Source: a virus. From it: a stretch of DNA of 64,000 bases. The notes below the pieces were generated by a model, which saw nothing but the letters and a program-made list of their open reading frames with translations, did no database searches and was not told where the DNA came from. The translations under genes and the position numbers were made by a program. Shown piece after piece: positions 5,290 through 64,000 of the stretch (position 1 is its first letter; every line of letters begins with the position of its first letter). The DNA is taken from IMG/VR virus record IMGVR_UViG_3300042485_000398, positions 1 through 64,000 of that record. The stretch is one strand, 5' to 3'.

Positions 5290-5321
5290 TAAAAGTATCT
5301 CCAGAAGCTAAACGTTTGCTA

Positions 5322-5329
5322 TATTTATA
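5322..5329 (-). promoter_or_regulatory. T4-type late promoter
   Basis: Perfect TATAAATA on the minus strand 33 bases before the start at 5289. Confidence 0.7.
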
Positions 5330-5333
5330 ACAA

Positions 5334-6718: not shown

Positions 6719-7851
6719 TATTTGCCCTTGCTTGCTCTTAGAATTGCACTGCGCTCTCGGTTAGCTTTCGAGAAGCCTTCGCGGTCAACAACCTTCAGAC
6801 CATGGGCGACATAACCTTCGCCGCCAGCGGCTGCACCATTAATATGCGTCGAGAACCCACCACCGGCGGCACGATCTAATCCTCTAGCAAGATGATTGGT
6901 CGCTTGTTGTAAATGGTGGTGAATTTGAAACGATCTTTGAAAGTGCTTTTTGCTGGCATCTACCTGCGATAGATGAGTATTCATAGTGGCAGTCTTGCGC
7001 TCTTTAGCAGCCGGAGTCTTGACGGCATCTATCAGTTTCTGGTGCGAAGTTTCTAAATGCTTCCTGTATCCTTCGACTGAAGGTTTTTCACCGCTTGTAA
7101 CAGTTCTATTGATATAAGTTCTTAGATGTATTTCATGACCAGGCAGATGCTGATACGAGTGACTTTTCATCAACTTTTCTGCCGCACTCAGATGCTCTTC
7201 TGCTTGGGACTTAACTGTAGAATGAAGTTTGCGCTCTTTGTCTGATACAAGATGTTGTACCATGTGAACATCAGGATGTGATTGAAAGTGCGACATGTCC
7301 GTGATAGGATGTGCGGTTCTTTCTGGACCCTTTAGCTCCGTATGTATAGTAACACTAACCTTGGATTTCTTTAGCTTCTTCGCTTCTTCGCTACCAGCAT
7401 CCGCACGATATTCAATCGTATTTGGAGTATGCGAGATGTGTGAGGTGTATTCTGATCTTCCAGAAGGTTCGCTCATATATCCGCCCTGGTATTCACCGGG
7501 CTTTTTTGGAATTACTTTACCCAGGTGGGCATGAAGTGCTTTCAGAGGACCAACAAGATATGGTTTATGGCCATGTTGCTTTTCAATATCTGCGGCAGAA
7601 TAGTTGTAGTGAGAACCAGCACCCTTATACTTGACACCAATCTTACCATCAGGTGTTCGAATTACATGGAAAGACATTCTATCATCTATCTTACGAGTAG
7701 ATGGTGTTTTCCCACGTGCAACACCACGCAAAGTTTCCAATGCGTGGTGTGCAGCGTCTTGACTATCAAATGATCTATCAGAGGGATGCTCTATATGAGC
7801 AATACCACCAGTGTGGGTCGCCTCAGTGATAAATTGTGTAAAGGATAACAT
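6718..7851 (-). CDS. DUF6267-like phage protein, possible degenerate nucleotidyltransferase/ligase fold
   Basis: 377 residues from ATG 7851 (MLSFTQFITEATHTGGIAH). A longer frame exists to 7956, but a perfect late box at 7880-7887 lies between, so the shorter start is preferred. The pattern of His/Glu near residue 20, then KPYLVGPLKALHAHL and GEYQGGYM, resembles the phage family DUF6267, where a KxDG-like lysine motif occurs; here that site reads KIDD. Family assignment is from memory and uncertain. Function unknown. Confidence 0.5.
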   Translation of the reverse strand: MLSFTQFITEATHTGGIAHIEHPSDRSFDSQDAAHHALETLRGVARGKTPSTRKIDDRMSFHVIRTPDGKIGVKYKGAGSHYNYSAADIEKQHGHKPYLVGPLKALHAHLGKVIPKKPGEYQGGYMSEPSGRSEYTSHISHTPNTIEYRADAGSEEAKKLKKSKVSVTIHTELKGPERTAHPITDMSHFQSHPDVHMVQHLVSDKERKLHSTVKSQAEEHLSAAEKLMKSHSYQHLPGHEIHLRTYINRTVTSGEKPSVEGYRKHLETSHQKLIDAVKTPAAKERKTATMNTHLSQVDASKKHFQRSFQIHHHLQQATNHLARGLDRAAGGGFSTHINGAAAGGEGYVAHGLKVVDREGFSKANRERSAILRASKGK

Positions 7852-7879
7852 AAGGGTCTCATCTCTATTGATTACCCTA

Positions 7880-7887
7880 TATTTATA
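7880..7887 (-). promoter_or_regulatory. T4-type late promoter
   Basis: Perfect TATAAATA on the minus strand 29 bases before the start at 7851. The same gene also has an early-type promoter at 7929-7956. Confidence 0.7.
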
Positions 7888-7928
7888 ATACTTTCGAATC
7901 ACACTCTCTCTTTTCCATCTACTATTAT

Positions 7929-7956
7929 ATAGTAGCAGATTCTGAGGAAATGTCAA
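7929..7956 (-). promoter_or_regulatory. Early sigma-70-like promoter with palindromic -10 region
   Basis: Minus strand TTGACA (7951-7956), 16-bp spacer, TACTAT (7929-7934); a 17-bp spacing to ACTATA is also possible. The -10 lies in a perfect inverted repeat at 7919-7935 (CTACTAT-TAT-ATAGTAG). It points to the DUF6267-like gene. Confidence 0.6.
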
Positions 7957-7965
7957 GCGGTATTT

Positions 7966-8316
7966 TTATGCCAGTATAGCACTCAATTCTTCGGTAACAT
8001 CCACTGCGGTAAGATCGATAGGAGGAAAATCGATTGCACCATTTAGATTGGCTTGGAATGTTTCAGAATTTGTAGGGGCTTCTGCAAAATAAATTTCAAA
8101 TCCAGCTACAGTTTCACGAACAAATGAATCGCCACCTTCAAACATGTGGGAAACTTTATCAAGTTCTTCATTAATCATTTCAAAGGTGGGTTCACCAGTA
8201 AAATACTTGACGATATATTCTTTTGCACCAACTGTCTTCCATAATGGAAGGTCAGCACTACCAACATTTGTCCATACAAATGAGGATACTACAAGTTTAA
8301 GATTCAATTCGTCCAT
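7966..8316 (-). CDS. Hypothetical protein
   Basis: 116 residues starting MDELNLKLVVSSFVW, with AGGAAATAAT before the ATG. Acidic, no membrane segment and no recognised motif. It lies between an early promoter and tRNA-Arg, and may be co-transcribed from the promoter at 8418-8446. Function not recognised. Confidence 0.6.
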   Translation of the reverse strand: MDELNLKLVVSSFVWTNVGSADLPLWKTVGAKEYIVKYFTGEPTFEMINEELDKVSHMFEGGDSFVRETVAGFEIYFAEAPTNSETFQANLNGAIDFPPIDLTAVDVTEELSAILA

Positions 8317-43204: not shown

Positions 43205-43964
43205 CAAATTGCTCCACATAATTCCAATCGTCTAGATAGGATGCATCATTAGGCGTATAGGTTACTTGATACTTAATTTTTTCCAACGTATCCACACTCG
43301 GATTAATGGCCGCATACGTATTAGCAATCGCAGTTTTAATATAACCTTGCATATCAACTGGACCGTAGAAGTTTATACCAAGATTAAAGGTTAGATTCCA
43401 CACAATAGATTGTCTTTGTGTAAACTCACCTTCGTAATTGTCTTCGTATGAGACATTCTCTAGTATAATTTGTAAATCTCTTTTGATTCCCATTTCTGGA
43501 ATATCAGTTATGGACACACAAAAATCTGGATTGAAGAACGGTAAAATCTGTTCGATGATTTGAAGACCATCATCTTGATTTTTTGTCACAATAAAAAGAG
43601 ATATCGATAAAGTATATGGTGTGCTAGTATACTGCACTCTTACTTTATCTGCATCGTCGCCCACACCCACTGCTATATTCTTGGTAAGAATATTCAATTT
43701 CTGTTGTGGATTATATTGAAGGCCTGTAATCTCGAACCCAATTCTAGGCAATGTGATTGCAACCGACGCCGGATCGTTTCCAGGTACCGCAGCAACTCTT
43801 GCCAGAAACTTATCTTTAGGTCCGTATGCAAGGGGAACGCGAATAGACTGAGCTATTTCACCCGCAGAGTTTTTACGCTCTACGGTTAGTTGATTGAATA
43901 TCGTTCCAAAAGCAATGATAGCTTTACGAATATGTTGATGATAAAAATGCTGCTTCAAAAACAT
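43188..43964 (-). CDS. 15: Tail sheath terminator gp15
   Basis: 258 residues (T4: 272). IIAFGTIFNQLTVER, AVAVPGNDPASVA-type segments and YEDNYEGEFTQRQSIVWNL match T4-like gp15. It caps the tail at the neck. One-base overlap with the gene 14 stop. Confidence 0.93.
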   Translation of the reverse strand: MFLKQHFYHQHIRKAIIAFGTIFNQLTVERKNSAGEIAQSIRVPLAYGPKDKFLARVAAVPGNDPASVAITLPRIGFEITGLQYNPQQKLNILTKNIAVGVGDDADKVRVQYTSTPYTLSISLFIVTKNQDDGLQIIEQILPFFNPDFCVSITDIPEMGIKRDLQIILENVSYEDNYEGEFTQRQSIVWNLTFNLGINFYGPVDMQGYIKTAIANTYAAINPSVDTLEKIKYQVTYTPNDASYLDDWNYVEQFDEAYE

Positions 43965-44719
43965 TATGCCGCTGTCCTTACTTGAACTTCGCCGAATGGG
44001 TTGAAGGCGGTAAAGTCTACAAAGCCGGCTGCTTGTGCTTCAAATTCGTTTGTCTGGTCTAGAGGGTCAACGTTTGCTGTGCCGCTCTCTTGTAAGATAA
44101 TCGAGTCTCCGGTATTTGATAGAACATAATCACCGGACTCCATGATAAGTTGCCACCCAAGATTGTCTTGTGTTTTACCATCGGTAATACTATCAATTTC
44201 TTCGATCCCAGTATCAATGGTCTCGGAGCTAAATTCGAATACCTGGCATGACATTCTGTAAGTGTAAATCTTTCCTAACTGGTAGAAAGGATTTAGAAAA
44301 TCTACGTAGTTGATTTGAAAGAACGTCTTTGTCTTGGGAAAGAACAGTAAATCACCTTCCGCTGGACGCTCTGGCAACTGCAAATTTTCTGCATTTCTAC
44401 CCACAGATTCTTCCCAGCGGCGTCTAGCAACAACAAACGTTGCGGTAGACCTGAACTCGAAGCCAAACTTTGTTAGTAGCTCACCTTCTCCCTCAAAACC
44501 TTCTGTATTTTCAAGATACATTTCCAATGGGTATGCTTGGGTAAAATATGATAGGGCATCTTCATATAGAATTTCGTCTTTGTTACCTATAGTTCTAGGA
44601 AGATAGTAAACATCATGTCCATAAATCTTCATGCTTTCGATAACCAGGTCCTCCAACAAACGCTGTTCGTTTGTGGTTCCCGACGTATTTCCTGATTGAA
44701 AGTAGAAGTTGGTAGGCAC
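43964..44719 (-). CDS. 14: Neck protein gp14
   Basis: 251 residues (T4: 256), GTG start (no upstream ATG in frame and no clear ribosome site). MPTNFYFQSG and LVIESMKIYGHDVYYLPR are conserved gp14 features. With gp13 it seals the head-tail connector. Confidence 0.92.
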   Translation of the reverse strand: MPTNFYFQSGNTSGTTNEQRLLEDLVIESMKIYGHDVYYLPRTIGNKDEILYEDALSYFTQAYPLEMYLENTEGFEGEGELLTKFGFEFRSTATFVVARRRWEESVGRNAENLQLPERPAEGDLLFFPKTKTFFQINYVDFLNPFYQLGKIYTYRMSCQVFEFSSETIDTGIEEIDSITDGKTQDNLGWQLIMESGDYVLSNTGDSIILQESGTANVDPLDQTNEFEAQAAGFVDFTAFNPFGEVQVRTAA

Positions 44720-46375: not shown

Positions 46376-46613
46376 ATGAACCCATATCGTAAACTGGAGG
46401 ACTTGTGCCAGTAATATCCCCCAGATCGATGGTTTCTGGAATAGTGAAAAAGTCCGGATTATACCCACCAACTTCGATAATACTACCGTCCGTCTTCTTT
46501 GAATACAATACGCCATCGGCTAAATTTACAGCAAGTTCACCGACTGAAATATCATTAGCACCTGGTATGGCGCCAGTGGTTTCACTTCTTTTAAGTTGGA
46601 CAACGGTCGACAT
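46371..46613 (-). CDS. Small fibre-module protein, type II
   Basis: 80 residues beginning [17 protein letters not shown], then ISVGELAVNLADGVLYSKKTDG. This is an N-terminal fibre module alone; the protein ends PPVYDMGSL. Closely related to the protein at 48825-49175. Start overlaps the upstream stop (TAATG). Likely a virion fibre component. Confidence 0.7.
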   Translation of the reverse strand: MSTVVQLKRSETTGAIPGANDISVGELAVNLADGVLYSKKTDGSIIEVGGYNPDFFTIPETIDLGDITGTSPPVYDMGSL

Positions 46614-48595
46614 TAGTTTAATAGTGTCCCTGCGGCGTCATAGATATTGATACGGAAATATGCGCTTGAGTTTCCATCAAGAAGATCAGCATCAAGTCCT
46701 GAACCTGCACCATCTACTGTTTTAATTGCATCAAGCATATTCGTTGCGGTGAATGAACCACCTAGAGCTACAGATGTGCCCGCAAGAGTGATTGCACTAT
46801 TAGTCAGCGATGAGTTAGCAATATTTGAAAGAGTATTTGATGCGCCACTGATTGTTTTATTTGTTAAGGTATTGGTAGAAGATATAGTTGGAACAACCAC
46901 ACCCTCAACAGCAAGAACACCCGCAGATGAACGTGTTAAAGTAGTATCAGTAGCGTGTCCTAATTCAATACTACCAACACCTAATGCAGTGGAAGTGGAA
47001 GCAGTAATACCGCTAACTGGTAGACCAGTAGCATTTGTTAATGTACCAGAAGATGGAGTGCCAAGCGCACCACCCGAATAGAGAACTGTACCACCAGCAC
47101 CGAAAGCAACTGATGAAGAATCCGTACCAGTAAATGTTAACGTGTTTGACGCTGTTAATGTTTTACCATCAGCGATTGTTAACGTGGAACTAGTTGCTGG
47201 TGCAGTAATCGCAACCTTGTTGACAGATGTAGCAGTCGCCACGCCAAGAGTCGGTGTAACAAGTGTTGGACTTGTGGCAAAAACAGCAGCACCACTACCC
47301 GTTTCATCAGTTAAGGCTGCTAGTAGTTGAGCAGAAGTGAATGATCCTAGTACCGCTGCGTTGCCTACCGATGTGATATGCCCCGTTAAGTTTGCGTTAG
47401 TTGTTACATTACCCGCAGTTAATCCAGATGCTGTGCCCGTTACATTGGTCATTACACCAGAAGCAGGAGTGCCTAATGCTGGTGTCGTTAGTGTTGGACT
47501 TGTTAGAGTCTTGTTAGTTAGAGTCTGGGTTGATGTGGTACCAACAACTGGAATGTAGTTAGTTCCGTCTACTGTAAATTCCCAAACATCGGAAGTTTCA
47601 TTCCATTGAAGAGCAACGTTAGTGGAAGTACCACGTTCGACTTCAATACCAGCATTTTGTGATGGAGTTCCCGCTTCATTACTATTTAAAGTAATGATGT
47701 TATCAGCAAGATTGATTGTTTCGGTGTTTACTGTGGTCGTAGTTCCGGAAACAGTTAGATTACCACTAACAGTTAAATCATTGAATGTAACGTTAGATCC
47801 AGTTCCAACTGCCTGGCCAATAGCAACTGCACCGTCAGTGATAGTAACACCAGTTCCAGCGCTGAAGTGAGCGCGAACATCTGACGCACTTGGACCAGTA
47901 TATGTGATCACACCAGTTGTGCTGTTATATGCTAGTGATCCATCACCACCACTATCTGTTACAGATACAGCACCACGCGCAAGAGCATCTGTATACTGTG
48001 TGATTGTTGTTGCGATAGCACCATCAGTGATAGTAACACCGGTTCCGGCGCTAAAGTGGGCGCGAACATCGGTAGCAGATGGCCCCGTATAAGTTATTAC
48101 ACCCGTAGTGGAATTGTATGCTAATGAACCATCACCACCACTATCTGTTACCGATACAGAACCTCTTGCAAGAGTATCGGTGTATTGTGTGATTGTGCTT
48201 GAAATTGCACCCGAGGTAATAGAAATACCAGTGCTTGCACTAAAGTGGGCGCGAACATCTGTTGCGCTTGGACCAGTGTAAGTAATTGCACCCGTTGTGC
48301 TATTATATGCAAGTGAACCATCACCACCGGAATCTGTTACCGATACTGCCGCTCTTGCTCTAGTATCAGTGAAATACAGATTTGTAGCACCTTCTGTAAT
48401 CTCGTCGCTGTTATCTTTAGTCTGAATTGCTGAAGTAACAAATGCTTCTGTTGCCAGAGGTTTACCACCTGCGGTAGTACCATCATGAACAACTACTGTA
48501 TCTTTTGTTGTGTCGACCGTGACTTCACCAACAGCACCTGTGAAGGTATTATGCTGGGTAGTAGTCCCTCTTCTAAGTTGTAAAATCGTTGCCAT
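46613..48595 (-). CDS. Long tail-fibre-type protein with triplicated repeat
   Basis: 660 residues. N-terminal [18 protein letters not shown] module, then three near-identical 63-residue repeats (residues 76-258), then [13 protein letters not shown] and repeated [22 protein letters not shown] style fibre shaft segments. The C-terminus ends [10 protein letters not shown]. Likely trimeric fibre shaft; receptor tip not obvious. Confidence 0.75.
47822..48370 (-). repeat. Three tandem 189-bp coding repeats
   Basis: Units start at codons 76, 139 and 202 of the fibre; each carries [19 protein letters not shown] and ends near ITQYTD, the third unit being incomplete. Confidence 0.85.
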
Positions 48596-48618
48596 TTGTA
48601 TCTCCTAGTCCACCCTTT

Positions 48619-48825
48619 TTAGGTAGTATATGTTCCACCATCAAGAATGGCACCGTCTTTTATGTTTGCTAGAGTAGTTTTTAACAACTCATGTCCACCA
48701 GCAGTTGATCCGTCATGCACTCTTATAGAATTGTTTGTAGTGTCTACGGTGATTTCTGCTTCTGCACCAGTAAAGGTATTGTGTTGAGTTGAAGTACCTC
48801 TTCTCAGTTTAACTCGTGCAGCCAT
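48619..48825 (-). CDS. Small fibre-module protein, type I
   Basis: 68 residues. Its first 45 ([29 protein letters not shown]) match the N-terminus of the long fibre at 46613-48595, and it ends AILDGGTYTT. It looks like a stand-alone anchoring module. One-base overlap with the upstream gene. Confidence 0.7.
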   Translation of the reverse strand: MAARVKLRRGTSTQHNTFTGAEAEITVDTTNNSIRVHDGSTAGGHELLKTTLANIKDGAILDGGTYTT

Positions 48826-49175
48826 CAGATACTCCCGTAATCAATTGAGTTATACGCAAAAACATTATCGGTAATTAACCCGTAATCTAAATCTGCGTTT
48901 TGATTTAGGCGAACGACCGCGACACCTGGAGTGGTTGTGGTATCAACAGCGAAATCGCCGAAAACGGTGTCCGCGAATGAAATTGTTGCCACTCCCGTGT
49001 TCGCTCCACCATCATTAACTTCAACTCCACCGAGAGTAACAACAGTACCATCAGTTTTTTTCGAGAAAATTTTCTTGTCTGTTAAATTTACCGCAAGTTC
49101 GCCTATTGCCAGATCGGCACCAGTTGGGGCCGCGCCCCCGGTTTCATTTCTTTTGATTTGAACTACTGTTGCCAT
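48825..49175 (-). CDS. Small fibre-module protein, type II
   Basis: 116 residues. VVQIKRNETGGAAP and IGELAVNLTDKKIFSKKTDG match the gene at 46371-46613. A beta-rich extension ends NSIDYGSI. Likely virion fibre or adapter component. Confidence 0.7.
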   Translation of the reverse strand: MATVVQIKRNETGGAAPTGADLAIGELAVNLTDKKIFSKKTDGTVVTLGGVEVNDGGANTGVATISFADTVFGDFAVDTTTTPGVAVVRLNQNADLDYGLITDNVFAYNSIDYGSI

Positions 49176-49184
49176 TCATCAATC

Positions 49185-49421
49185 CTATCCGTCTTTTGTA
49201 AAGTTCGATTCTTCCCAGTCGGACTTAGCGGCTTTCTTTACAGGTGTAGCAGTTGCAAGATTTAATGCCTCTTCTAATTCCTGTACCTTGGCTGTCAATT
49301 CAGCCATCGTCTCGTTTGCTAAATTTAACTGGGTCTTTACCATGATATTATCAAGAGTAATTGTTTTAAGTTGTTCGGCCAGATTATTAATATACGAATT
49401 GATAAACTTAGTTTGATCCAT
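49185..49421 (-). CDS. Coiled-coil small structural protein
   Basis: 78 residues from ATG 49421 (GGAGATACATA upstream); longer in-frame start at 49469 crosses the hairpin and is unlikely. Middle heptads (LANETMAELTAKVQELEEAL) form a coiled coil. Possible fibre assembly or trimerisation helper. No catalytic motif. Confidence 0.6.
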   Translation of the reverse strand: MDQTKFINSYINNLAEQLKTITLDNIMVKTQLNLANETMAELTAKVQELEEALNLATATPVKKAAKSDWEESNFTKDG

Positions 49422-49439
49422 TATGTATCTCCACAGAGT

Positions 49440-49462
49440 TGGGGTGGGACAATCCCACCCCA
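49440..49462 (-). other. 10-bp perfect hairpin in leader of 49185 gene
   Basis: TGGGGTGGGA pairs exactly with TCCCACCCCA around a 3-base loop. There is no T-run after it, so it is not a standard intrinsic terminator. It may stabilise or process mRNA. Confidence 0.6.
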
Positions 49463-49476
49463 TTCTCATCTATTTA

Positions 49477-51168
49477 TTAGTATGTTCCACCGTCGATATT
49501 ACCGAACGAAGGAGCAGCACCTGAACCACCGGATAGAAGAACTTGGCCTGCAGTTCCAGCAGCCGTAACACCGAGTGCAGAAGTGCCGTTACCGAACATA
49601 ACGCCGTTAGCAGTAAACGTTGCCGCACCAGTACCACCGTTTGGAACAGTGATTGCCGAAGCAAGCGAAGCAATAGTTCCGCCTTCGAGGTTAGCAACAA
49701 GAGTAGCAATGGTATAACCAGTTGCCGCTGTGTTAACAGTTGTTGTTGGAGCAGCTTGTGAGTCCTTGAAGAGTCTCCACTTACCGTCTGAAGCATCACG
49801 GAAGATACCTGAGTAAAGGTCTAGCGAACCGCTGGTATCATACATACCGAACAGACCGATGTCAACTGCGTCGGTTGCATTGTTGTCGTTACCAACGAAT
49901 ACGAGAGGATCGGTAACAGTTAGAGTTGTCGAGTTAACAGTAGTTGTTGTTCCCGAAACTGTTAGGTTTCCTGCAACAGTAACGTTAGCACCCGAAAGTG
50001 TAAGAGCAGTAGTTCCGTCAGATGCCTTAATGTCATTTCCGCCGATCTTAAGATCGCCAGCAACAGTAACGTCAGCGCCGTCAAGTGTCAGAGCAGTAGC
50101 AGTAGATGACTTAATGTCATTACCAGTTACAGTAAGATCGCCAGCAATAGCAACGTTTGCAGCATCAAGCGTAATAGCAGTAGCAGAAGATGACTTAATG
50201 TCATTTCCAGTAACTGTCAGGTCGCCAGCAACGGCAACATCTGCACCCGAAAGAGTGATAGAAGTTGTTCCGCCAGATGCCTTGATGTCGTTACCACCAA
50301 CTGTTAGGTCACCAACAAGAACAACGTTGTCTGTAAGAGCAACAGTTACGCCAGCATCTTCAGAACCTGAACCTGTGATAGCAACTTGGTTTGCAGTTCC
50401 AGAAACAGTAGCAACATAGTTACCAGTTGTGTCAGTTCCAAGAGCAACCGAGTTAGCAGCAATCGAGGCAACACCGGATTCACTGATTGTAATATCGCCA
50501 GAAACGGCAGCATAGATGTAATCGCCAATATCTTCAGCAGTAATCTTCTTGTTTGCAGTTGCCGAAGCATCATAAACAAGGAACTCGTCCGCATCAGCAA
50601 GTGATGTCAGAGCAGTAGCACCAGTAATATCAGCAACGATACCAACTGTATTGTCTGTAATGGTTGTCTTGATACCAGCAGTACCAGCAAAAGTCAGCGT
50701 TCCGCCTGTCGCGAACGAATCAGTATTAGGAACTCCTTGGTTGTCGCTGATTGTGAATGATGACGAAGCAGGAGAAGCGAATGCGAGTTGACCTGAACCG
50801 TTTGTGGTAAGGATCTGACCATCTGTACCGTCTGCGGTTGGAAGGATCAGAGTAAGGTCAGCGGCAAGTGTATCAGCCGCCTTCAGAGTTACTTTGTTGG
50901 AACCATTATTTGTTCCTTCAGCAAAGGTTGCTTTGCCACCAACTGTTGCAGTTGCATCCACAAGACGGGCATCAACCTTGTCTGTGAAATACTTACCACC
51001 AACAGCATGAATTGCGGCAGTTCCGCCTTGCACTGACTCGATGTATAGTTTCGCACCTACGCCGCTATTGCTGGCGTCCTGTGCATAGGCCATTTCGCCT
51101 TCTAGGAGATCAGTGGTTGCAGGAGCAGTTACGCCTGAACTTCTTTTAATTTGAATAATTGTTGACAT
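49477..51168 (-). CDS. Tail-fibre-type protein ending in DGGTY
   Basis: 563 residues. N-terminal IIQIKRSSGVTAPATTDLLEGEMAYA module, then four roughly 30-residue repeats (GDLTVTGNDIKSS type) and [13 protein letters not shown]. The end is AAGTAGQVLLSGGSG..NIDGGTY. Probably a virion fibre. A late-like AATAAATA lies at its end for the next gene. Confidence 0.75.
   Translation of the reverse strand: MSTIIQIKRSSGVTAPATTDLLEGEMAYAQDASNSGVGAKLYIESVQGGTAAIHAVGGKYFTDKVDARLVDATATVGGKATFAEGTNNGSNKVTLKAADTLAADLTLILPTADGTDGQILTTNGSGQLAFASPASSSFTISDNQGVPNTDSFATGGTLTFAGTAGIKTTITDNTVGIVADITGATALTSLADADEFLVYDASATANKKITAEDIGDYIYAAVSGDITISESGVASIAANSVALGTDTTGNYVATVSGTANQVAITGSGSEDAGVTVALTDNVVLVGDLTVGGNDIKASGGTTSITLSGADVAVAGDLTVTGNDIKSSSATAITLDAANVAIAGDLTVTGNDIKSSTATALTLDGADVTVAGDLKIGGNDIKASDGTTALTLSGANVTVAGNLTVSGTTTTVNSTTLTVTDPLVFVGNDNNATDAVDIGLFGMYDTSGSLDLYSGIFRDASDGKWRLFKDSQAAPTTTVNTAATGYTIATLVANLEGGTIASLASAITVPNGGTGAATFTANGVMFGNGTSALGVTAAGTAGQVLLSGGSGAAPSFGNIDGGTY
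49965..50310 (-). repeat. Tandem fibre repeats (GDLTVTGNDIK)
   Basis: About four coding repeats of roughly 78-90 bases within the fibre gene, each encoding a GDL..GNDIK..S..A/TLxGA unit. Confidence 0.75.
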
Positions 51169-51203
51169 TTTAGACTATTCCTTTTTGGTTATTGTCTTTA
51201 TTA

Positions 51204-51419
51204 TTAATACGTTCCGCCATCAATTGACGAAGGTGCAACGGTGGTGGAAGGATCTACTGCTTCCCATTTTAGTGTCTCTGAGTTATAAATCAATGTATAT
51301 CCATCCTGTAATCCTGCTGCGTCAACATTCGCCAAAGTCTCCACCTTTTGTGAACCGCGGCCGCTAACTATACTCGTATTTATAGTTTTAGAATTTGGAA
51401 CGGTTACTTTTATAGCCAT
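51204..51419 (-). CDS. Small structural protein ending in DGGTY
   Basis: 71 residues; ends SSIDGGTY. Middle reads DGYTLIYNSETLKWEAV, a fibre-linker pattern. Start overlaps the upstream stop (TAATG). Likely a short virion adapter. Confidence 0.6.
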   Translation of the reverse strand: MAIKVTVPNSKTINTSIVSGRGSQKVETLANVDAAGLQDGYTLIYNSETLKWEAVDPSTTVAPSSIDGGTY

Positions 51420-51748
51420 TATTTTGTTACCTCTGGATTAACTACTACAATTCCTTCGAGAACTCTGATAGTTTCTTCATCACTCACCACTTCAATATCG
51501 TAAACATATCTTCCTGCTTTAATTTCGGAAGTTTCTTCTGCCGTCAAAGATATAGTTACTTCTCCATCTAAGGGAGAAGTAATAGCGGCGGTAAAATCTA
51601 TTGCGGTGTTTGTATAAAAAGACTTGCGCATCTGAGATGCGGCAGTATAATCAGAGAGATCCTTCGCATCTCCGTATTGATCACTGACTTCTATAGCAAA
51701 ACTAAAGGTCGTTCCTTGATCAATATAAATATTTTGAACCTGCGCCAT
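51419..51748 (-). CDS. Beta-sandwich-like virion protein
   Basis: 109 residues beginning MAQVQNIYIDQGTTFSFAIE with repeated beta-strand pattern (GEVTISLTAEETSEIKAGRYVYDIEV), similar in style to small BppU/Ig-like baseplate or fibre adapters. Its late box (51776-51783) faces a plus-strand late box. Confidence 0.6.
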   Translation of the reverse strand: MAQVQNIYIDQGTTFSFAIEVSDQYGDAKDLSDYTAASQMRKSFYTNTAIDFTAAITSPLDGEVTISLTAEETSEIKAGRYVYDIEVVSDEETIRVLEGIVVVNPEVTK

Positions 51749-51757
51749 AAGAACCCT

Positions 51758-51765
51758 TATAAATG
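51758..51765 (+). promoter_or_regulatory. Plus-strand late-like box for glycosyltransferase island
   Basis: TATAAATG (one mismatch) 33 bases before the ATG at 51798, with AGGTGA just ahead of the start. Confidence 0.5.
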
Positions 51766-51775
51766 TATTTGAACT

Positions 51776-51783
51776 TATTTATA
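51776..51783 (-). promoter_or_regulatory. Minus-strand late box for 51419 gene
   Basis: Perfect TATAAATA on the minus strand 28 bases before the start at 51748, face to face with the plus-strand box 10 bases away. Confidence 0.65.
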
Positions 51784-51797: not shown

Positions 51798-52475
51798 ATG
51801 AAAACGATATTGATGCTAAAATATGGCACAAAATATTCCAAAGAAGATGTAGATCGTATCATCGAAGCCACTGGTGGCAAGTATAATTACGCCTGTATAA
51901 CCGACGATACTACCCTCGATCCCAGAGTTAAAATAATTCCATTACCAGAAGATGTTGACGGGACTTTCATTAAAATATGGATGTATGGTCTTGAAGACTT
52001 GGGTGATGTTCTTTACTTCGACCTTGATATTAGAATACAAAAAGATGTCGATAATTTATGGAATTATCTTGACGAACGCCCAACTATATGCTATACTTAT
52101 TGGAAGGATATAAGTTGGGTAGATAAAAAAGCGAGTTCTTACAGCGAACAATACTTGAGTAATTATAATTCTAGTGCTGTCCTATGGCGCTCTGGTAGTT
52201 CAAAAGCCAAAGAGATTTGGGAACATTTTGAAAAGGACATGGACTATTATATGATTAAGTATTGGGGCGACGATAGATTTTTATGGCATGAGAAGTTTGA
52301 TTTTAAGTGGTTTCCAAAAGGCGAGTTTTATTCTTTTCTCTATGGTGCAGACTACTACGACCCAGAGAAGAGAATTGTAGACAGATACCGACCAGAGTAT
52401 ACAGTATGTTTACTCAATGGTTTAGATTATTTTCCAGGATATGATAAAAAATATGATGAACTTTCTAACAATTAA
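51798..52475 (+). CDS. Glycosyltransferase-like protein (GT-A fold), paralogue 1
   Basis: 225 residues. N-terminal KYGTKYS, a putative nucleotide-sugar metal site FDLDIRI near 80-86 (DxD), later NSSAVLWRSGSS and FKWFPKGEFYS. Four consecutive genes share this layout. Substrate and acceptor unknown. First gene of the plus-strand block; overlaps the next start. Confidence 0.7.
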   Translation: MKTILMLKYGTKYSKEDVDRIIEATGGKYNYACITDDTTLDPRVKIIPLPEDVDGTFIKIWMYGLEDLGDVLYFDLDIRIQKDVDNLWNYLDERPTICYTYWKDISWVDKKASSYSEQYLSNYNSSAVLWRSGSSKAKEIWEHFEKDMDYYMIKYWGDDRFLWHEKFDFKWFPKGEFYSFLYGADYYDPEKRIVDRYRPEYTVCLLNGLDYFPGYDKKYDELSNN

Positions 52476-53223
52476 ATGGGGTGACAAATATTCTGAAAAG
52501 TATGTGAACAATCTTTACAAAATGGTAAAGAAGCACTACACTAAAGATTTCAGATTTATTTGTTATACCGATGATGTAAAAAAGATTAATAAGAATATTG
52601 AAGTCGTTCCTATTCCAGATGACGATCTCCTGCATCCTAAATATTATTACGGTAAAGAAGAATACTGTTTCGATAGGGCAAAATTTCTAGTCTTCAATTC
52701 AGAAGAATGGATAGACTGTGAATATGAAGATCGATTCTGTTACTTAGATTTGGATGTGGTAATTCAAAATAACATTGATGAAATAGATGATCTGGCCAAG
52801 AAGCCTAGAATTGCACATAGTTTATGGCAACCAGATGGTCAACTGGACGAAAGATTCTTCATTGAAACTCGGGGCACATACTACAATTCCAGTATGATGT
52901 TGTGGTCATACGGCCAGTGCCAGCATATATATTATGACGTTTGGGAAGAAAGCGAAATCATTTTCAAAACTTTCTTTAAGGGAACAGACAACTACCATTT
53001 CTGGAGACAAAGAGACTTCTGGAAAAACATTCCAGATCATTGGTTATATTCTTGGAATAGAGGAAGATATCATCCCGGCGACACAGATCGTTTCAAGTTT
53101 AGGGATGATGCTAAAATCTGCCTGTTCAATACAGATAACGTACCTCATCCCTCTACGAAAGATCACGTAGAATTGGCAGAGTGTAAGGATAAAAATATTA
53201 TTAGATTGTGGAACGCAAAATGA
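52453..53223 (+). CDS. Glycosyltransferase-like protein (GT-A fold), paralogue 2
   Basis: 256 residues from ATG 52453 (MMNFLTIKWGDKYS); ATG 52441 gives four more. WGDKYS at the start aligns with its paralogues, with LDLDVVIQ as DxD site, YYNSSMMLWS, and WLYSWNRGRYHPGD and CLFNTDNVP near the end. Stop overlaps the next start (ATGA). Confidence 0.7.
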   Translation: MMNFLTIKWGDKYSEKYVNNLYKMVKKHYTKDFRFICYTDDVKKINKNIEVVPIPDDDLLHPKYYYGKEEYCFDRAKFLVFNSEEWIDCEYEDRFCYLDLDVVIQNNIDEIDDLAKKPRIAHSLWQPDGQLDERFFIETRGTYYNSSMMLWSYGQCQHIYYDVWEESEIIFKTFFKGTDNYHFWRQRDFWKNIPDHWLYSWNRGRYHPGDTDRFKFRDDAKICLFNTDNVPHPSTKDHVELAECKDKNIIRLWNAK

Positions 53224-54044
53224 AAATACGAGTAAATTACGTTTGTTGTAAATGGGGCACCAAATACGATGCTGAGTTTGTCAATCGTCTTTATAGGATG
53301 GCAAAGAAGCATACTCCAGATAATTTTGAGTTCCATTTCTATTGCTATACCGATAATAGCGAAGGATTTGACGAAGAGATTAAAGTCATCGACTTTCCAG
53401 ACATTCCCGACATTCATCCCAAATACTGGTTCGGTTCAGAGGATTTCAAATACGGTATGGCACGTTGTTGGGACAGGCCAAAGACGTTCATCTTCAATAC
53501 ACACAACTTCGCAGACGATAAACCCACTGGAAGATTTGTCTTTTTCGACCTTGATGTTATCATACAAAATGATTTGTCGCCAATCATCACTTATGACCTA
53601 GAGAATCCCACCAAGTTGCGTTCATGGTGGCAAGACCCTCGCCCCATGAAGTCTCGTAACTTTAAGTTGTCACATGGTGCATATACTAATGGTAGTTGCA
53701 TGGTGTGGTCAGATGATCAGACCGAATGTATTTGGCAGGATGTCCTAGAACATCAAGAGCGTATTTGGTTTACCTTTACAGACGGCACAGATAATTATCA
53801 CAGTTGGCGATGGGGCGACTTTAGTAATACTCCTCTATGGAAACATTTTCCTAATACCTTTGCATACTCATACAATAGAGGTCGAGACTGGCAAGAAGGT
53901 GATTTAGAAGTCGCTAAATATAGAAAAGACTGCATTCTTTGTGTATTCAACGTGGACTTATTGCCGTTTCAAGACAATCACAGAGGTAAAGTAAAACAAG
54001 AAACGCTCGTTGATCCAGACTTATTAGAACATTGGAATATTTAA
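53220..54044 (+). CDS. Glycosyltransferase-like protein (GT-A fold), paralogue 3
   Basis: 274 residues from ATG 53220, chosen for the ATGA overlap; an upstream in-frame ATG at 53208 adds four residues. CKWGTKYDAEF, FYCYTD, FFDLDVIIQ (DxD), TNGSCMVWS, YSYNRGRDW and CVFNVDLLP are the family landmarks. Best-preserved member of the four. Confidence 0.72.
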   Translation: MKIRVNYVCCKWGTKYDAEFVNRLYRMAKKHTPDNFEFHFYCYTDNSEGFDEEIKVIDFPDIPDIHPKYWFGSEDFKYGMARCWDRPKTFIFNTHNFADDKPTGRFVFFDLDVIIQNDLSPIITYDLENPTKLRSWWQDPRPMKSRNFKLSHGAYTNGSCMVWSDDQTECIWQDVLEHQERIWFTFTDGTDNYHSWRWGDFSNTPLWKHFPNTFAYSYNRGRDWQEGDLEVAKYRKDCILCVFNVDLLPFQDNHRGKVKQETLVDPDLLEHWNI

Positions 54045-54727
54045 TGATTGATATCTACACAGTGAAATGGGGATACAAATATGGTCCTGAGTATGTCAAT
54101 AAATTGTTCGAGCAGTGTAAGGAGCATATTACGGGTGAGTTTGAATTTCACTGCATAACGGAACATGAAGTGGGATTGAACCCAGAAATAATCATTGTTC
54201 CTTTGCCTACAGACAACTATTATGAGAAGTGGTGGAACAAGTTATATTTGTTTGATCGACATTTTATTCGTAAACAGGGTGAGAAATTATTCTTTGATTT
54301 GGATATTGACATTCAACAAAACATCGATTGTATCGTTGAACATGATCCAGAAGATAAACTTACTTTCATTCGAACTCATTGGCACAACCTAAACAAAATG
54401 AAAATCGATACTAAAGATATTCCTCATAAGTATACAGACTTGAATTCAAGTGTGTTAAGATGGAATGACAAATTAGATGTTGATAAAATCACCAAGTTCG
54501 TTAGAGATTACCCTGACCAGATGTTTTATTATTATCGGGGTCTCGATAACATGTTCGGTCATCAAAGAGAACGTCTTTTAAAAATAGACTATTTTCCAGA
54601 CGGCTGGGTATACAGTTATAATTATGGGTATATGTGGCCTGCCGATACTAGAGAACAAGTTCTCAGAGAACAGCCACTAATTTGTTTGTATGATTCAATG
54701 GAAAGACCACAAGATGCTAAACTATAA
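54044..54727 (+). CDS. Glycosyltransferase-like protein (GT-A fold), paralogue 4
   Basis: 227 residues from ATG 54044 (TAATG overlap). VKWGYKYGPEYVN, FFDLDIDIQ (DxD), LNSSVLRWND, WVYSYNYGYMW. Slightly shorter than paralogue 3. The last 14 bases overlap the methyltransferase-like start. Confidence 0.7.
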   Translation: MIDIYTVKWGYKYGPEYVNKLFEQCKEHITGEFEFHCITEHEVGLNPEIIIVPLPTDNYYEKWWNKLYLFDRHFIRKQGEKLFFDLDIDIQQNIDCIVEHDPEDKLTFIRTHWHNLNKMKIDTKDIPHKYTDLNSSVLRWNDKLDVDKITKFVRDYPDQMFYYYRGLDNMFGHQRERLLKIDYFPDGWVYSYNYGYMWPADTREQVLREQPLICLYDSMERPQDAKL

Positions 54728-55370
54728 TTTTTTGAATAATTACCGTAATTGGGGTGAAGGTCTAGAAAAGATCAGCCATGAAATGCCATGGAAGCATGAA
54801 GATTTTCGTAAGTCTTTAAATCCTAATACGATGGATGCCGCCATTTGGTTAGTTGAAGAACTGAAAAAACATGTTGACTTTACCAAAAAACTTGATATAA
54901 CAATTCTAAACTCTTGGCTAGGATTTCCTCTTGTTCCACTGCTATGCGAAAATCTAAGTGTAAAGAAGTTGAACCTAATTGATATTGATAAAGATGCCTT
55001 AGAACTATCTAAGGTTTTCAATAAGTATTATACAGAAAAAGATATCGAACTCAGCCACCTTAATTGGGATGTACCCTTTGCATACCACGATATCAATTCG
55101 CTAAACACAGATGTGGTAATTTCACTTGGTTGTGAAACCATGTACCCTTTGAAGAATATGACTACTGCAAATTCAGATTGTATTTTTGCGTGTCAATCAT
55201 CTAATGTGTTTCGCGAAATGTATGGCATCAATTGTGTTCCGACCCTTGAAGATCACATAGAAAATGTCGGGGTTAAAGACGTTCTGTATAGCGGAAACAT
55301 TAATCAGTTTTATTGGTCTTGGGATGGTAAAGTAGACTTTGATAGATTTATGGTCATAGGAAGGAAGTAA
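54714..55370 (+). CDS. Methyltransferase-like (SAM-fold) protein
   Basis: 218 residues from ATG 54714 (MLNYNFLNNYRNWG); ATG 54690 is longer but lies within the previous gene. The segment ITILNSWLGFPLVPLLCE..LNLIDIDKDALELSKV resembles the SAM-binding Rossmann region, with an acidic LIDID strand end. Target unknown; it may act on the same glycan as its neighbours (inference). Confidence 0.55.
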   Translation: MLNYNFLNNYRNWGEGLEKISHEMPWKHEDFRKSLNPNTMDAAIWLVEELKKHVDFTKKLDITILNSWLGFPLVPLLCENLSVKKLNLIDIDKDALELSKVFNKYYTEKDIELSHLNWDVPFAYHDINSLNTDVVISLGCETMYPLKNMTTANSDCIFACQSSNVFREMYGINCVPTLEDHIENVGVKDVLYSGNINQFYWSWDGKVDFDRFMVIGRK

Positions 55371-57930: not shown

Positions 57931-59361
57931 TTAAGCGGTACGAATCCAAAGAGATACTGTTGATACTGTATCTTTAGTTGCTTGAATTGTATCGCCCGCA
58001 TATGTACCAGAATATGTTCCAGAATAGGTTCTAGAGCCAGAATACCCACCCGAATATGTTCTTGAACCGGCAAATGAGTTTGCATATGTGCCAGAATAAG
58101 TTCTGGAGCCAGAATAACTGGCGGAGTAAGTTCTAGAACCAGCAAATGAACCGGCAAAATTTGTTGGTTCCGATACATATCCTGCATTCGAATATGTTCT
58201 GGTACCAGCAAATGTTCCGGTAAAATTGGTTGATGCTGATACATAGCTGGTTGAGTATGTGCGCGAACCAGCGAATGTACCACCAATAAAACCACCGTAA
58301 TATAGAATATAGCTGGCAGAATATGTTCTAGAACCTGCAAAGGGTCTAGTCCCCGCGAAGTTGGTTGCATAAGATCCAGAATATGTTCTAGAACCTGCAA
58401 ACGTTCTAGTACCAGAGAAGTTAGTCACATAAGATCCAGAAAATGCTCTAGACCCAGCATATGTTGTGCTGTAAGTTCTGCCTCCGGCAAAGGTATTTGT
58501 ATATCCCGCCGGGGTATATGTTCTAGTTCCAGCATATGCTGCATTAGAATATGTTCTGGTACCACTATAGGCGCCGGTATAGTTTTCAGACGCGACTTGT
58601 TCACGAGTATCAGAAGCTGAACCCATGCTAACCCAAGTACCAGGAGATGGCGATGATGCTTGGATCTTATATGTACCAATACTGGTGCTGATAATACGAT
58701 TTCTGAAATAAGGAATCATTTCCTGAATTTCAGTATCGGTCATTTGCTTTACGTTATTGCCACTATATGTTTTCAGTGGACGAAGATCGGCATTCGGTGA
58801 TGTTGTAGCCGCAGTCTTCTGCCAAATATAATAAGTTGTGTTACCACCATTTGCAACATCGGTGATGGTGTAACGTGAGGTCCATGTACCGCCACTTGGC
58901 GCCGAGCCAGCAAGACGATACTGTCCCGCAGTATACTCTGATTCAGTAACCATTGCTGTGACCGCTTGGTCAATAATATCATTGCGGATCTGAGCGTCTG
59001 TCATTTGCTGAATTGCAGTGTCATATTGCAAAGGACGGTTTGTGATTGTACCAGCATCCTCAGCAGTAATTTGCTTTGCATAATACGTTACGGTGGCTAT
59101 AGCACCAGTAGCTGGGTGAGTACCAGTCGCTTCTGTTCTATCCGTATCAGCAAAAGTGCCGATTGCGGTACCAGAAAGTGCGTTTGCTGTATCAATATTA
59201 AGGTCAGCCGTATTAGAACCATTGCTTGCCGCGCCAGCAAATCCTACTGTGATTTTATTTGCAATATAATTTTTGACTTCCGTATTTGACATGGTCTGCA
59301 AACCCTGAAAGTTTGCAGAAGTAATCGGTGTAGCAGATGCTTTGAGCTTTAACGGGTTCAT
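57931..59361 (-). CDS. Virion protein with Tyr/Gly/Arg repeats
   Basis: 476 residues. The first 260 hold three internal repeats (MSNTEVKNYI near 24, MTDAQIRNDI near 116, MTDTEIQEMI near 209). About residues 262-465 are a low-complexity tract of AGSRTYSGSY-type units; I count about 14 G[STG]R[TAP][YF] motifs. The last residues are SLWIRTA. A virion fibre or adhesin role is inferred; no family is certain. Confidence 0.65.
   Translation of the reverse strand: MNPLKLKASATPITSANFQGLQTMSNTEVKNYIANKITVGFAGAASNGSNTADLNIDTANALSGTAIGTFADTDRTEATGTHPATGAIATVTYYAKQITAEDAGTITNRPLQYDTAIQQMTDAQIRNDIIDQAVTAMVTESEYTAGQYRLAGSAPSGGTWTSRYTITDVANGGNTTYYIWQKTAATTSPNADLRPLKTYSGNNVKQMTDTEIQEMIPYFRNRIISTSIGTYKIQASSPSPGTWVSMGSASDTREQVASENYTGAYSGTRTYSNAAYAGTRTYTPAGYTNTFAGGRTYSTTYAGSRAFSGSYVTNFSGTRTFAGSRTYSGSYATNFAGTRPFAGSRTYSASYILYYGGFIGGTFAGSRTYSTSYVSASTNFTGTFAGTRTYSNAGYVSEPTNFAGSFAGSRTYSASYSGSRTYSGTYANSFAGSRTYSGGYSGSRTYSGTYSGTYAGDTIQATKDTVSTVSLWIRTA
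57970..58580 (-). repeat. AGSRTYSGSY-type tandem repeat tract
   Basis: About 610 bases encoding some 14 copies of a Gly-Ser/Thr-Arg-Thr/Ala-Tyr/Phe unit separated by Ser/Gly/Tyr/Phe linkers, in the gene at 57931-59361. Confidence 0.8.
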
Positions 59362-60092: not shown

Positions 60093-63000
60093 TTATACCT
60101 GTAGAGCTATTGCACGAAGTTCACGACATTTTGGAACAACACTGGTTTGATTTGAAAGAAGAACTACTTTAACTGCGAAAGTTTTGTAGCCCGTGTAAGT
60201 TACGCCGTCAGTGGTATATTCCAATACGCCATCACCATTCAATTCGGTCGATGGAATATCATATGTATACTCAATGAAACTGGATGAAGTAACAGTCGGC
60301 GGAGTAGTTGTTAATTCGATCCAATCTTTTTCTTCAAACGGTGCTGGATCACTTTGATGTAGGAATCTGCCATATACCTTTACATCTGTTCCATTTGGAA
60401 CATACTGACTTAGATATACTCTAAGGTCTTCTGCTTCCTGCCCGTCATCTAGAACAACTTGACGAGAAACATACTTAGACCTTGCTTCACCGATACCAAT
60501 ATCTTCGTCTGTTGCATCATTGTTAACATCATTTGCGATTGCAATCATAGAACATTTTCTAAGGTCGATAACAGGTGAAACCGTAGAAGTCTGTGATGAC
60601 ATGCCCAGTTGAATTTTAAACGACTTATCTCCGTCGAGATCGTTTTGCTCATTTGAATATGAACGAATAGCCGCATCGATAGTCAACTCTGTGGTTTTAT
60701 CTGGCACAAAATTCTCATACGATGTCGATGCTTCTGTTTCGGAACCAGTATTTGCCGTGGCAGAATACGAAAAAATAAGTTGACATGGAGTATGATCCAT
60801 ATATGCAAGATTTGCACCCAATGCATTCAACACTTTATCCTCAAGTTCTGCTATTAGAGCATGAGAAGTGCCGTTGCCTACTCGGTCATTGACAGTGAAG
60901 TTCCCGCTCTCAACATAAATCTTAGCAACGTTGTATAGAGTATCGTAAGTATGAGCAAAGCCGGAATTGAGAGTAACACCGATATTTACATTCGATCCAC
61001 CAGTCATAGTCAAAGTTGGATTGCTGGTATATCCAGCGCCGGGATTTGTCACTGCTACATTAGTCACTGCACCGCCGGTAACAGTAACTGCAACCGTAGC
61101 ATTGGTTGTTGCACCACCGCCCGAAAGTGTGCGGGCAACAACTGTTGTAACTGTGTATGTTAGACCGGTTAGCGTGCCAGCAGTAGTTACGATTGCGTCA
61201 CCAGATTGAGTTGTCAGCGTGAATCCAGTAACAGCACCAACCGAACCTGTAACAGCAGAAACCTTATAGACAGTTCCTGTCGCATAACCAGATATTGTAG
61301 CAGTACCACCCAGAGTACCAGTGATAGTTACAAGATCGCCAACAACAAGTTTTGAAGCACCGCAAGTAAACTGGCCTGCAGTTCCAGAAACAGCAACAGT
61401 TGCGACAAGGGCACTACCATAACCAGTGCCTGCGTTGATTATATTAAACGAGAATCCATGAATTTTATCACCCGGAGAAAATTGAGAACTTGAGAAGGAA
61501 TGAAATTTTGCGTAATCGATATCATGTGTATTCAGTGCGACCGTACCAGTTGTGCCGATTGCAAAGTTTGCTCTCTGTAAACTAAACTTAATATCTTCTG
61601 CCTGATATGCGGTCCAAGTTCTGTTGTTCGCGGATGTAAATAGAACACCGACATTAGGCTGCTCTGAAATACGAGTTGTTGTGTTAAGTTGGTTTTCACC
61701 CAATTCAGAAACCCAAATTTCATAGTTGGGATCATTACCCGCTGGCAGAAGAACAAAGCAATACTCGGTATTGTTTTGTAAGAATACGGGAGATGGGAAA
61801 GTAAACTTAGTTGACGTAGCACCATTTTCGGCATCGATGTTTACCTGACCAGGGGATAGTGTTACTTCACCGAAAGGAATTACTCTATCACCCGGATAAC
61901 CATTTACCACTTCTCGTAGTTGCAGGGTAATAGGATTTGTGGTAGATTTTTTCTTAAAGTAGGTATCTATTGAAGTCACATAACATCCAAACGGCACCTC
62001 AGAAACCATAAACGTCTGTGCGATTGGATCGGGAGCTCCGAACCTAAAATCAAACATTGATAAGTCGAAGTCAAACATTGGTAGATCTGGCACAACGGGT
62101 GGTTCAGGTTGAACAACTGGCGGTGCCGGCGGTAGCGGAGCAGGATCTGGAGCAGTTACAGTAACATTAGTTACCTCAGTGACGTTATTGGTAACGTTGG
62201 TCACAGATGTATTATTGATATTTTGTGTAACCTGAGTGACTTCGGTAACATTTGTGGTATTATTGATTGTAGTAAATGTATTATTTACCACTGTTGTTTG
62301 AACAACACCAACCGCTCTTTCACCTAGTCGATTTGTTGTCGTATTGCTATCGGAAACCGATCTACTATCCGACAGATTTGAGGTTGCCAGATTAGCAACT
62401 CTTGTAGAAATAACAGTATCTTGAACGCTTTGTGATAAACCATTCGCAGAGAATGTCATCGAGGCAGCGGTAGTAATAAACTTGGGTCTGTTTTTAGAAT
62501 CATCGGTAAGTCTGAATAGCTTTTCTCCGACGCGGAAAGTACCAGCAGGAATTCTGAATTGACCAAAGCATTCACCAGACGCATTTGTGATCAGTGGGTC
62601 GCCATAATCACCAGTTGCTAGTGATGTATTTTGAACAGAATTTGTTGCGCCGCTAACAACACCAGATAACGGACGACAATGAGCCTCAACAGTGGCACCG
62701 TCAAAGAATGGATATACACGAGTAAGCGGCTTCATTCTCGTTGCTTTAAACGTCACAATAATAGAACGCATAAACGGAATGATAGAAGTATTTGTTACTC
62801 TAGGACCAATTCGTTGAGTTTGTGTTTCCGGCGTTACAGTAAGTTGAACGCCCTGACGAGTTTGTCTTTGTTCTGTTGTCGTTGTTACGATAGCAATATC
62901 TTCTTGGAATAGAGTATCGCCTCGTATGGCAGTGTTACCCGCTGCCGTTTGTGTGTTTGTAGTAACTCTACCCGTTCCGGTATCTTGCCAATCTTCCCAC

Positions 63001-64000
63001 TGAGTGCCCCATGCATCAGCAAGAGTTTCCCAAGCATCATAGTTACCATCAAAATTAGCAGAAATATCAGGAAGAACAGAAGTGTCTGTCCAGTTATCAA
63101 CAGGAGGATCGAGGTCTATTTCACCGATATATGTGAACAGAAGTTCACCGGTGCAATTACGGAACTTAGATGCTTGTAACTGACTCATCATCGTAAATTC
63201 GGTATACGGTAGTGTCAGTAGATCGCCTGTTTTTGTAATATTAGACGAGTTTGCAGAATCATACTGTAGGTCCACATTTTCCATGAAGAAGAATGGACGC
63301 ATTTCTTTTGCGTTTGGATCGATAGCAATATGGTATTCATTACTTAGAACATTACCGACATTATGTCCGGTGAATGCATCTACAAGAATACCGTTCTTAA
63401 AGCGATCTAGGCCGTTGGTATCAGTAATACTCAAATCACTAGCAGATTTTTCTAGTAAATTTAGCGAAGTGTAGTATTCCAGTCGATTTAGTCGCTGTTC
63501 TAGCTGACCAATATCGCGCATTGTATAACGACGATTATCAATTGCCTTATACTTAATTCCATAATCCGGTCTACCCACAGATTTAGCAACGTTGGGTGCC
63601 AGAGAAGGATACGGAGGAATGTCTATAACCGCGATAGATAAAGAATTCTCCGGTTCTACTGGTTCAAGTGGACTTAAAGAAGATACACCATATACAGAGG
63701 AAAATACACCCTCGTCGTCCATAACAATTCTATCTTTACGTCCCAGATAATACTCAATGTCTGTAGTAAATTGTTCTGTCGGGAAAGGTGTTATAATAGC
63801 TGCGCCAGTAGGACCACTAGGTGAAGAACCTACTGCAGGATTAACTGTCGCTGAGCCAGGGCTTGTCGTGAATGTAATAGTATCATCCCAGCGAGGACGA
63901 AAATCTAGTGTGTCGCGAAGATCATATGTGACCCCGGAAGTTGTAGAGGTATAAATTGGAATTTGTTCTGTGCGAATTTTGCCCGCTGGTGTAGTTTCGT
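60093..64000 (-). CDS. Very large virion structural protein (DUF4815-type), 5' end beyond window
   Basis: At least 1302 residues; the frame stays open to the right edge. Near the right edge YDLRDTLDFRPRW and TDIEYYLGRKDRIV recall the DUF4815 region of T4-like phage structural proteins. Later FGAPDPIAQTFMVSEV and NTEYCFVLLPAGNDPNYEIWV are further family features. A disordered Asn/Thr/Val middle (NNTSVTNVTNNVTEVTN) and a Gly-rich segment matching the window-start protein follow. Likely a baseplate/fibre-linked virion protein. Confidence 0.75.
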   Translation of the reverse strand, partial: ETTPAGKIRTEQIPIYTSTTSGVTYDLRDTLDFRPRWDDTITFTTSPGSATVNPAVGSSPSGPTGAAIITPFPTEQFTTDIEYYLGRKDRIVMDDEGVFSSVYGVSSLSPLEPVEPENSLSIAVIDIPPYPSLAPNVAKSVGRPDYGIKYKAIDNRRYTMRDIGQLEQRLNRLEYYTSLNLLEKSASDLSITDTNGLDRFKNGILVDAFTGHNVGNVLSNEYHIAIDPNAKEMRPFFFMENVDLQYDSANSSNITKTGDLLTLPYTEFTMMSQLQASKFRNCTGELLFTYIGEIDLDPPVDNWTDTSVLPDISANFDGNYDAWETLADAWGTQWEDWQDTGTGRVTTNTQTAAGNTAIRGDTLFQEDIAIVTTTTEQRQTRQGVQLTVTPETQTQRIGPRVTNTSIIPFMRSIIVTFKATRMKPLTRVYPFFDGATVEAHCRPLSGVVSGATNSVQNTSLATGDYGDPLITNASGECFGQFRIPAGTFRVGEKLFRLTDDSKNRPKFITTAASMTFSANGLSQSVQDTVISTRVANLATSNLSDSRSVSDSNTTTNRLGERAVGVVQTTVVNNTFTTINNTTNVTEVTQVTQNINNTSVTNVTNNVTEVTNVTVTAPDPAPLPPAPPVVQPEPPVVPDLPMFDFDLSMFDFRFGAPDPIAQTFMVSEVPFGCYVTSIDTYFKKKSTTNPITLQLREVVNGYPGDRVIPFGEVTLSPGQVNIDAENGATSTKFTFPSPVFLQNNTEYCFVLLPAGNDPNYEIWVSELGENQLNTTTRISEQPNVGVLFTSANNRTWTAYQAEDIKFSLQRANFAIGTTGTVALNTHDIDYAKFHSFSSSQFSPGDKIHGFSFNIINAGTGYGSALVATVAVSGTAGQFTCGASKLVVGDLVTITGTLGGTATISGYATGTVYKVSAVTGSVGAVTGFTLTTQSGDAIVTTAGTLTGLTYTVTTVVARTLSGGGATTNATVAVTVTGGAVTNVAVTNPGAGYTSNPTLTMTGGSNVNIGVTLNSGFAHTYDTLYNVAKIYVESGNFTVNDRVGNGTSHALIAELEDKVLNALGANLAYMDHTPCQLIFSYSATANTGSETEASTSYENFVPDKTTELTIDAAIRSYSNEQNDLDGDKSFKIQLGMSSQTSTVSPVIDLRKCSMIAIANDVNNDATDEDIGIGEARSKYVSRQVVLDDGQEAEDLRVYLSQYVPNGTDVKVYGRFLHQSDPAPFEEKDWIELTTTPPTVTSSSFIEYTYDIPSTELNGDGVLEYTTDGVTYTGYKTFAVKVVLLSNQTSVVPKCRELRAIALQV
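61190..61400 (-). repeat. Structural-protein module shared with window start (1-190)
   Basis: Encodes GQFTCGASKLVVGD..ISGYATGTVYKVSAVTG, very like GQFTCTATTLAAGD..ISGYATGSIYTVSAVTG encoded at 1-190. DNA similarity is also visible over long runs. Confidence 0.75.

Follow-up and report, generated by a model that had tools for sequence, protein, structure and literature searches.

Gene content and layout of the block

What would a virus decorate with four adjacent glycosyltransferase (GT) genes and a methyltransferase gene? The question is raised by positions 51798-55370 of the window, by which we mean the whole 64,000-nucleotide stretch analyzed here, itself taken from a virus record of 117,295 bases: four tandem paralogous GT genes and a methyltransferase-like gene lie there, all on the plus strand. 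T4-like genes for DNA polymerase, portal, scaffold, tail sheath, terminase and neck proteins are found in the window, and the remainder of the record carries CsgG, carbamoyltransferase and radical SAM genes together with a permuted tmRNA. Myophages of SAR11 and OM43 are reported to carry curli pore genes, radical SAM genes or a tmRNA of this kind (PMC7029224 among the sources), and the block belongs to a lineage of aquatic T4-like viruses that infect bacteria.

Running from their likely start sites, the genes cover 51798-52475 (GT1, P0001), 52456-53223 (GT2, P0002), 53220-54044 (GT3, P0003), 54044-54727 (GT4, P0004) and 54714-55370 (the methyltransferase-like P0005); the longest open reading frames of GT2, GT3 and GT4 begin slightly upstream, at 52441, at a GTG at 53208 and at a TTG at 54032. 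The four adjacent GT-like frames described in an earlier note on this DNA were all found in place, as were the overlaps it reported, an ATGA joining GT2 to GT3 (53220) and a TAATG joining GT3 to GT4 (54042). Their paralogy, also proposed there, is far beyond chance, with BLASTP E-values ranging from 1.6e-54 (GT2/GT3, 38% identity) through 2.7e-19 (GT4/GT2) to 7.5e-10 (GT1/GT2). The block had further been called the sole one on the plus strand; it is the only convincing plus-strand run of the window, where base skew reverses at the block, but the record holds another such run at about 84-89 kb. Most of the block has a G+C content of 35-40%, versus 42%.

Several other features of the record were seen in passing. 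The permuted tmRNA (L172:10558-11003, minus strand) encodes the tag ANDNVAFAGYALAA; a permuted tmRNA is reported for methylophage Melnitz too. Several radical SAM-like genes stand in a row beside the carbamoyltransferase gene (L172:16676-17806 and L173:761-9773, minus strand), three of them confirmed by a Pfam match, two of these just below the cut-off. Near CsgG, a protein with CHASE2 and adenylate/guanylate cyclase domains (L173:10545-12602, minus strand; about 110.5-112.6 kb of the record) could be the product of a real phage gene or of a joined host stretch.

Family and fold of the glycosyltransferases

Across 56 family members, the K-(W/Y)-G-x-K-Y, DLDxxIQ, N(S/G)S..W and YS motifs are near-invariant, in agreement with those first noticed in the four proteins, with the exception of YS(W/Y)N(R/Y)G, which fails in GT1 (YSFLYG); the other GT1 segments read LYFDLDIRIQ, NSS, GDDRF and LLNG. 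The PHROG family phrog_1962 (glycosyltransferase) was matched by 31 of the 56 members (GT1 at 1.1e-10 and GT2 at 1.4e-5), and PF01501, the Pfam family for GT8, by 10 of the 56 (best 2.4e-4) and by none of the four window proteins alone, so that by these sequence matches GT1-GT4 resemble glycosyltransferase family 8. Searching the sequences of solved structures returned chance matches only for all four families, and a DNA-level search against phages gave no match to the block. An EhRGS-RhoGEF_PH-like Pfam match on GT3, spanning 25 residues and below the cut-off, was dismissed as chance.

For GT3, the most conserved copy, an AlphaFold2 model (pLDDT 80.9, pTM 0.86) had 207 Foldseek matches in the PDB at E<=0.001, the best being GT6, GT8 and UGGT enzymes of GT-A fold (GT6 1g8o, 1.7e-8; LgtC of GT8, 1ss9, 5.6e-8; probability 1.00). 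The TM-scores of these matches are moderate (about 0.5) and the identity is about 13%, and they therefore support a fold class and not a specific activity. The DxD site lies at residues 110-112 of the model, directly after a strand at 105-109, and the nearest viral structure model is a glycosyltransferase of an uncultured phage. The GT-A fold suggested from the letters alone is thus supported for GT3, and GT1, GT2 and GT4 are predicted to share it by homology.

Conservation and origin of the array

The order GT1-GT4 was identical in all 130 fetched loci showing both ends of the block (GT1 and the methyltransferase gene), and GT2-GT4 were missing from none; these loci are redundant, many overlapping or sharing one contig, and came from searches with GT or methyltransferase queries, so phages that lost the whole block are invisible in the count. 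The four GT genes are followed by the methyltransferase gene and usually by a coiled-coil gene, with an oxygenase-like gene and a fifth GT gene on the opposite strand, and each of six long records has exactly four members of the GT family. In a tree, which calls for caution because long branches separate the copies, every copy formed one clade (100/100 for GT1, weaker at 85/93 for GT2), indicating that the duplications predate the divergence of the lineage, within which GT1 copies fall to about 43% identity. Tandem duplication at this position, ahead of the diversification of the lineage, is the probable source of the array. Four old paralogues held invariant in an otherwise variable region imply four non-redundant jobs under selection, and hence a specific glycan to look for on virions or host.

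Relatives of the block are found in single copy. Phage C48C1 (OQ984149, Kyanoviridae) shares, in the same order, the fiber gene, the 57419-type gene, the fifth GT gene, the oxygenase-like gene and the fiber assembly gene; the plus-strand block is absent at that site, and a single GT relative lies elsewhere in its genome. L181, a phage-like contig placed in the bin of a Muricauda MAG, carries a lone array-like GT gene, which lies on the opposite strand next to the oxygenase-like gene and shares the array's derived IQ and FNG motifs. Single relatives of GT4/GT2 (GT4 relative, tblastn 8e-12) and of the methyltransferase gene occur in Pelagibacter phage Mosig EXVC030M (MT647606), where the methyltransferase relative lies upstream of VrlC at a distance of two genes from a GT. 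Mosig differs in having no tandem array, and its GT relatives, ending in FHG or otherwise, each stand apart. The existence of relatives holding zero, one or four copies at the site hints at how tandem duplication may build such a set. Tandem growth at the site is the simplest account of the array's origin, and the lower G+C of the block would also fit import of the founder gene.

Two of the loci carry probably misleading titles: a 'Flavobacteriales' MAG (L180) was taken as a misbinned phage contig and not as a sign of the host, and a 'Bifidobacterium breve' MAG (L179, CALPIE020000128.1), which holds the same phage block, is most likely misbinned as well. In L180, where GT1, GT2 and GT3 are present, a 496-residue frame lies between GT2 and GT3 (4302-5792, plus strand); its DxD is not kept, and its cysteine-containing C-terminal part may be SPASM-like.

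Accessory genes and the tail-fiber neighborhood

The claim of a methyltransferase-like gene at 54714-55370 gained support from a structure model of P0005 (pLDDT 86.0, pTM 0.86), which had 866 Foldseek PDB matches at E<=0.001 (best 4.9e-8), those listed being almost all methyltransferases or spermine/spermidine synthases, as expected of a class I SAM methyltransferase fold. Motif I is unusual, reading LNSWLGFP at the GxGxG position, and the acidic LIDxDxDA is kept; a relative, Mosig_00090, is annotated as 'putative methyltransferase'. The charged coiled-coil-like protein P0006 (55372-56097, plus strand), with no family match in Pfam or PHROG, had been counted in the set. Its gene is indeed present, but 20 loci holding all the other genes have no recognizable copy, which rules it out as a core part and marks it as accessory.

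On the minus strand, the reported oxygenase-like (P0007, 56084-56731; longest frame extending to 56827) and fifth GT-like (P0008, 56731-57429) genes are real and conserved. P0007 resembles 2-oxoglutarate oxygenases and has no Pfam match; its HxN...H...R pattern holds without exception in the 19 aligned homologues, as it does in C48C1 and L181. Since HxN replaces the HxD of the usual HxD...H iron-binding triad, its chemistry may be unusual. P0008, with a conserved DCD/DAD and a C48C1 homologue (5e-25), matched Pfam Glycos_transf_2 at E 0.05, below the cut-off. It belongs to a family distinct from GT1-GT4 and is not supported as a further array copy, its profile similarity to A3 being weak and confined to the surroundings of the DxD. 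In L181, two small genes (7364-8184, minus strand), by eye perhaps DoxX-like and cupredoxin-like, separate the oxygenase-like gene from the fifth GT gene.

The block sits among tail-fiber genes, bracketed by a neck-like gene (43964-44719) and a VrlC-like gene (60093-63722; match to Mosig VrlC, 2e-23), and its fiber neighbors are conserved. Immediately to the left is a gene for a tail-fiber assembly-like protein (51419-51748, minus strand; phrog_3304, L-shaped tail fiber protein assembly, 1.3e-23), whose homologue in C48C1 is contiguous with that of P0007; P0007 itself belongs to an older fiber locus flanking the block. To the right is a repeat-rich fiber-like protein (57931-59361, minus strand) with similarity to a 10-kb C48C1 protein (1.4e-13), in which 56% of residues 191-476 are Ser, Thr, Tyr or Gly; it carries many short repeats of the FAGSRTYSGSY type, rich in these four amino acids. 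One locus (L098) has lost the fiber genes matching 46613-51204 and keeps the block together with a 57931-type fiber, which would make the latter the better candidate acceptor.

Late-promoter-like motifs

A TATAAAT lies 40 bases upstream of GT1 (51758-51764, plus strand), and a divergent TATAAATA precedes the fiber-assembly gene (51776-51783, minus strand). Among 42 distinct upstream sequences, TATAAAT is kept 25-60 bases upstream of GT1 in 35, three of them perhaps only by way of the neighboring gene's start region, and is absent in 7, while TATAAATA is present in all 42; because the sequences are related to one another, the counts do not represent independent events. The window's capsid, scaffold and sheath genes are also preceded by the motif, which stands before 8 of 36 right-half frames versus 2 of 37 left-half frames. 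By these matches to the T4 and cyanophage late-promoter consensus (PMC2984593), we infer that the block is expressed late with the virion genes.

Function of the gene set

The reading that we favor, and hold tentatively, is that a late-expressed set of four GT-A glycosyltransferases and a methyltransferase builds a glycan on the phage's own tail fiber. The four enzymes, probably of retaining type, would be made late along with the methyltransferase and the virion genes and would add successive or different sugars, giving a short defined glycan that the methyltransferase may cap. The phage's own fiber would be the most likely acceptor because the genes lie between the fiber assembly gene and the repeat-rich fiber gene, beside oxygenase-like and fifth GT genes that are part of the fiber locus even in the relative without the array. 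In a complete fiber-glycosylation pathway, unlikely as a whole, a fiber residue would be hydroxylated by the oxygenase-like protein and primed by the fifth GT; GT1-GT4 would then extend it by one sugar apiece in a set sequence before the methyltransferase capped the product, and the resulting defined glycan would serve adsorption or shielding. Against a glycan on the fiber count the moderate structural matches, the 7 of 42 upstream sequences that lack the promoter-like motif, the replacement of a GT8-type His in all four copies, and the published view that such phage GTs change the host O-chain. A search for sugar-nucleotide pathway genes also speaks against it, having found no more than one epimerase-family gene in five of six records and none in the window's own record.

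Several other readings have to be weighed against a glycan on the fiber. The four copies might be degenerate or non-catalytic and kept for binding or structural roles, given that the GT8-type C-terminal His (of the HxxGxxKPW-type metal-binding motif) is replaced by Asn or Asp in all four, at the FHG position where the single-copy relatives in C48C1, Mosig, S20 and Neorhizobium keep it. We consider this very unlikely: D-L-D is invariant across the 56 members, which also keep the other family motifs, and GT6 enzymes, structurally the nearest matches, are not known to need that His. Least probable of all is that the enzymes glucosylate modified bases of the phage DNA in the manner of T4. The phage is T4-like and phage GTs are known to act on modified DNA bases, but the T4 DNA glucosyltransferases have a GT-B fold as opposed to the GT-A fold modeled here. 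PF00303, the thymidylate synthase/dCMP-hydroxymethylase family, is absent from six records, one of 171.6 kb, in searches whose positive controls worked (ThyX was found in three of the six), and the T4 beta-glucosyltransferase family was not found in a search run without a positive control. Nor is there any sign of glycosylated DNA in cyanomyoviruses (PMC2984593). Of the three targets named in the earlier note (virion fibers, host surface glycans or DNA), DNA glucosylated as in T4 is thus disfavored, both by the missing thymidylate synthase/dCMP-hydroxymethylase-family gene and by the difference in fold.

Fibers and host glycans are inseparable by sequence, and a quite possible if more doubtful alternative to the fiber is that the enzymes act during infection on a polysaccharide of the host surface (LPS O-chain or similar), so that progeny cannot re-adsorb or other phages cannot superinfect. 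Such a change of the host surface is the published view for GT8-rich pelagimyophage clusters (host O-chain; PMC7029224) and for the LPS genes of cyanophage P-SSM2. The Mosig relatives sit among genes annotated as sulfotransferase, epimerase and carbamoyltransferase, and LgtC, a close structural match to the GT3 model, is a GT8 LPS galactosyltransferase. Serotype-conversion systems are membrane-bound, however, and none of the eight proteins has a likely membrane segment (highest 19-residue hydropathy 1.49); a single defined four-enzyme set is also less expected for a variable target. The late-promoter-like motif and the fixed place among fiber genes lean instead toward the virion.

Comparison with known phage systems

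The earlier note knew of no described phage system with this arrangement, which holds for the exact array, found in none of the annotated phage records searched, but not in general: GT8-rich clusters between gp14 and VrlC were published for pelagimyophages in 2020 (PMC7029224), and our locus is in the corresponding position, between a neck gene and VrlC with fibers and GTs. Mycobacteriophage GTs have been proposed to decorate capsid proteins (PMC11256854), a likeness in that phage-coded GTs would act on virion proteins, although those phages are unrelated to the block's lineage. The GTs of marine T4-like phages are usually credited, without test, with changing the host surface. Like the present locus, the pelagimyophage host recognition cluster belongs to T4-like phages and combines tail fibers with GT8-type transferases in the neck-to-VrlC region, but its published description is of a hypervariable region that lacks synteny and has its GTs scattered (PMC7029224), whereas here a fixed array and a methyltransferase gene keep one order throughout the lineage. 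GT8 genes in such a cluster having already been reported, what looks new is the fixed four-copy array.
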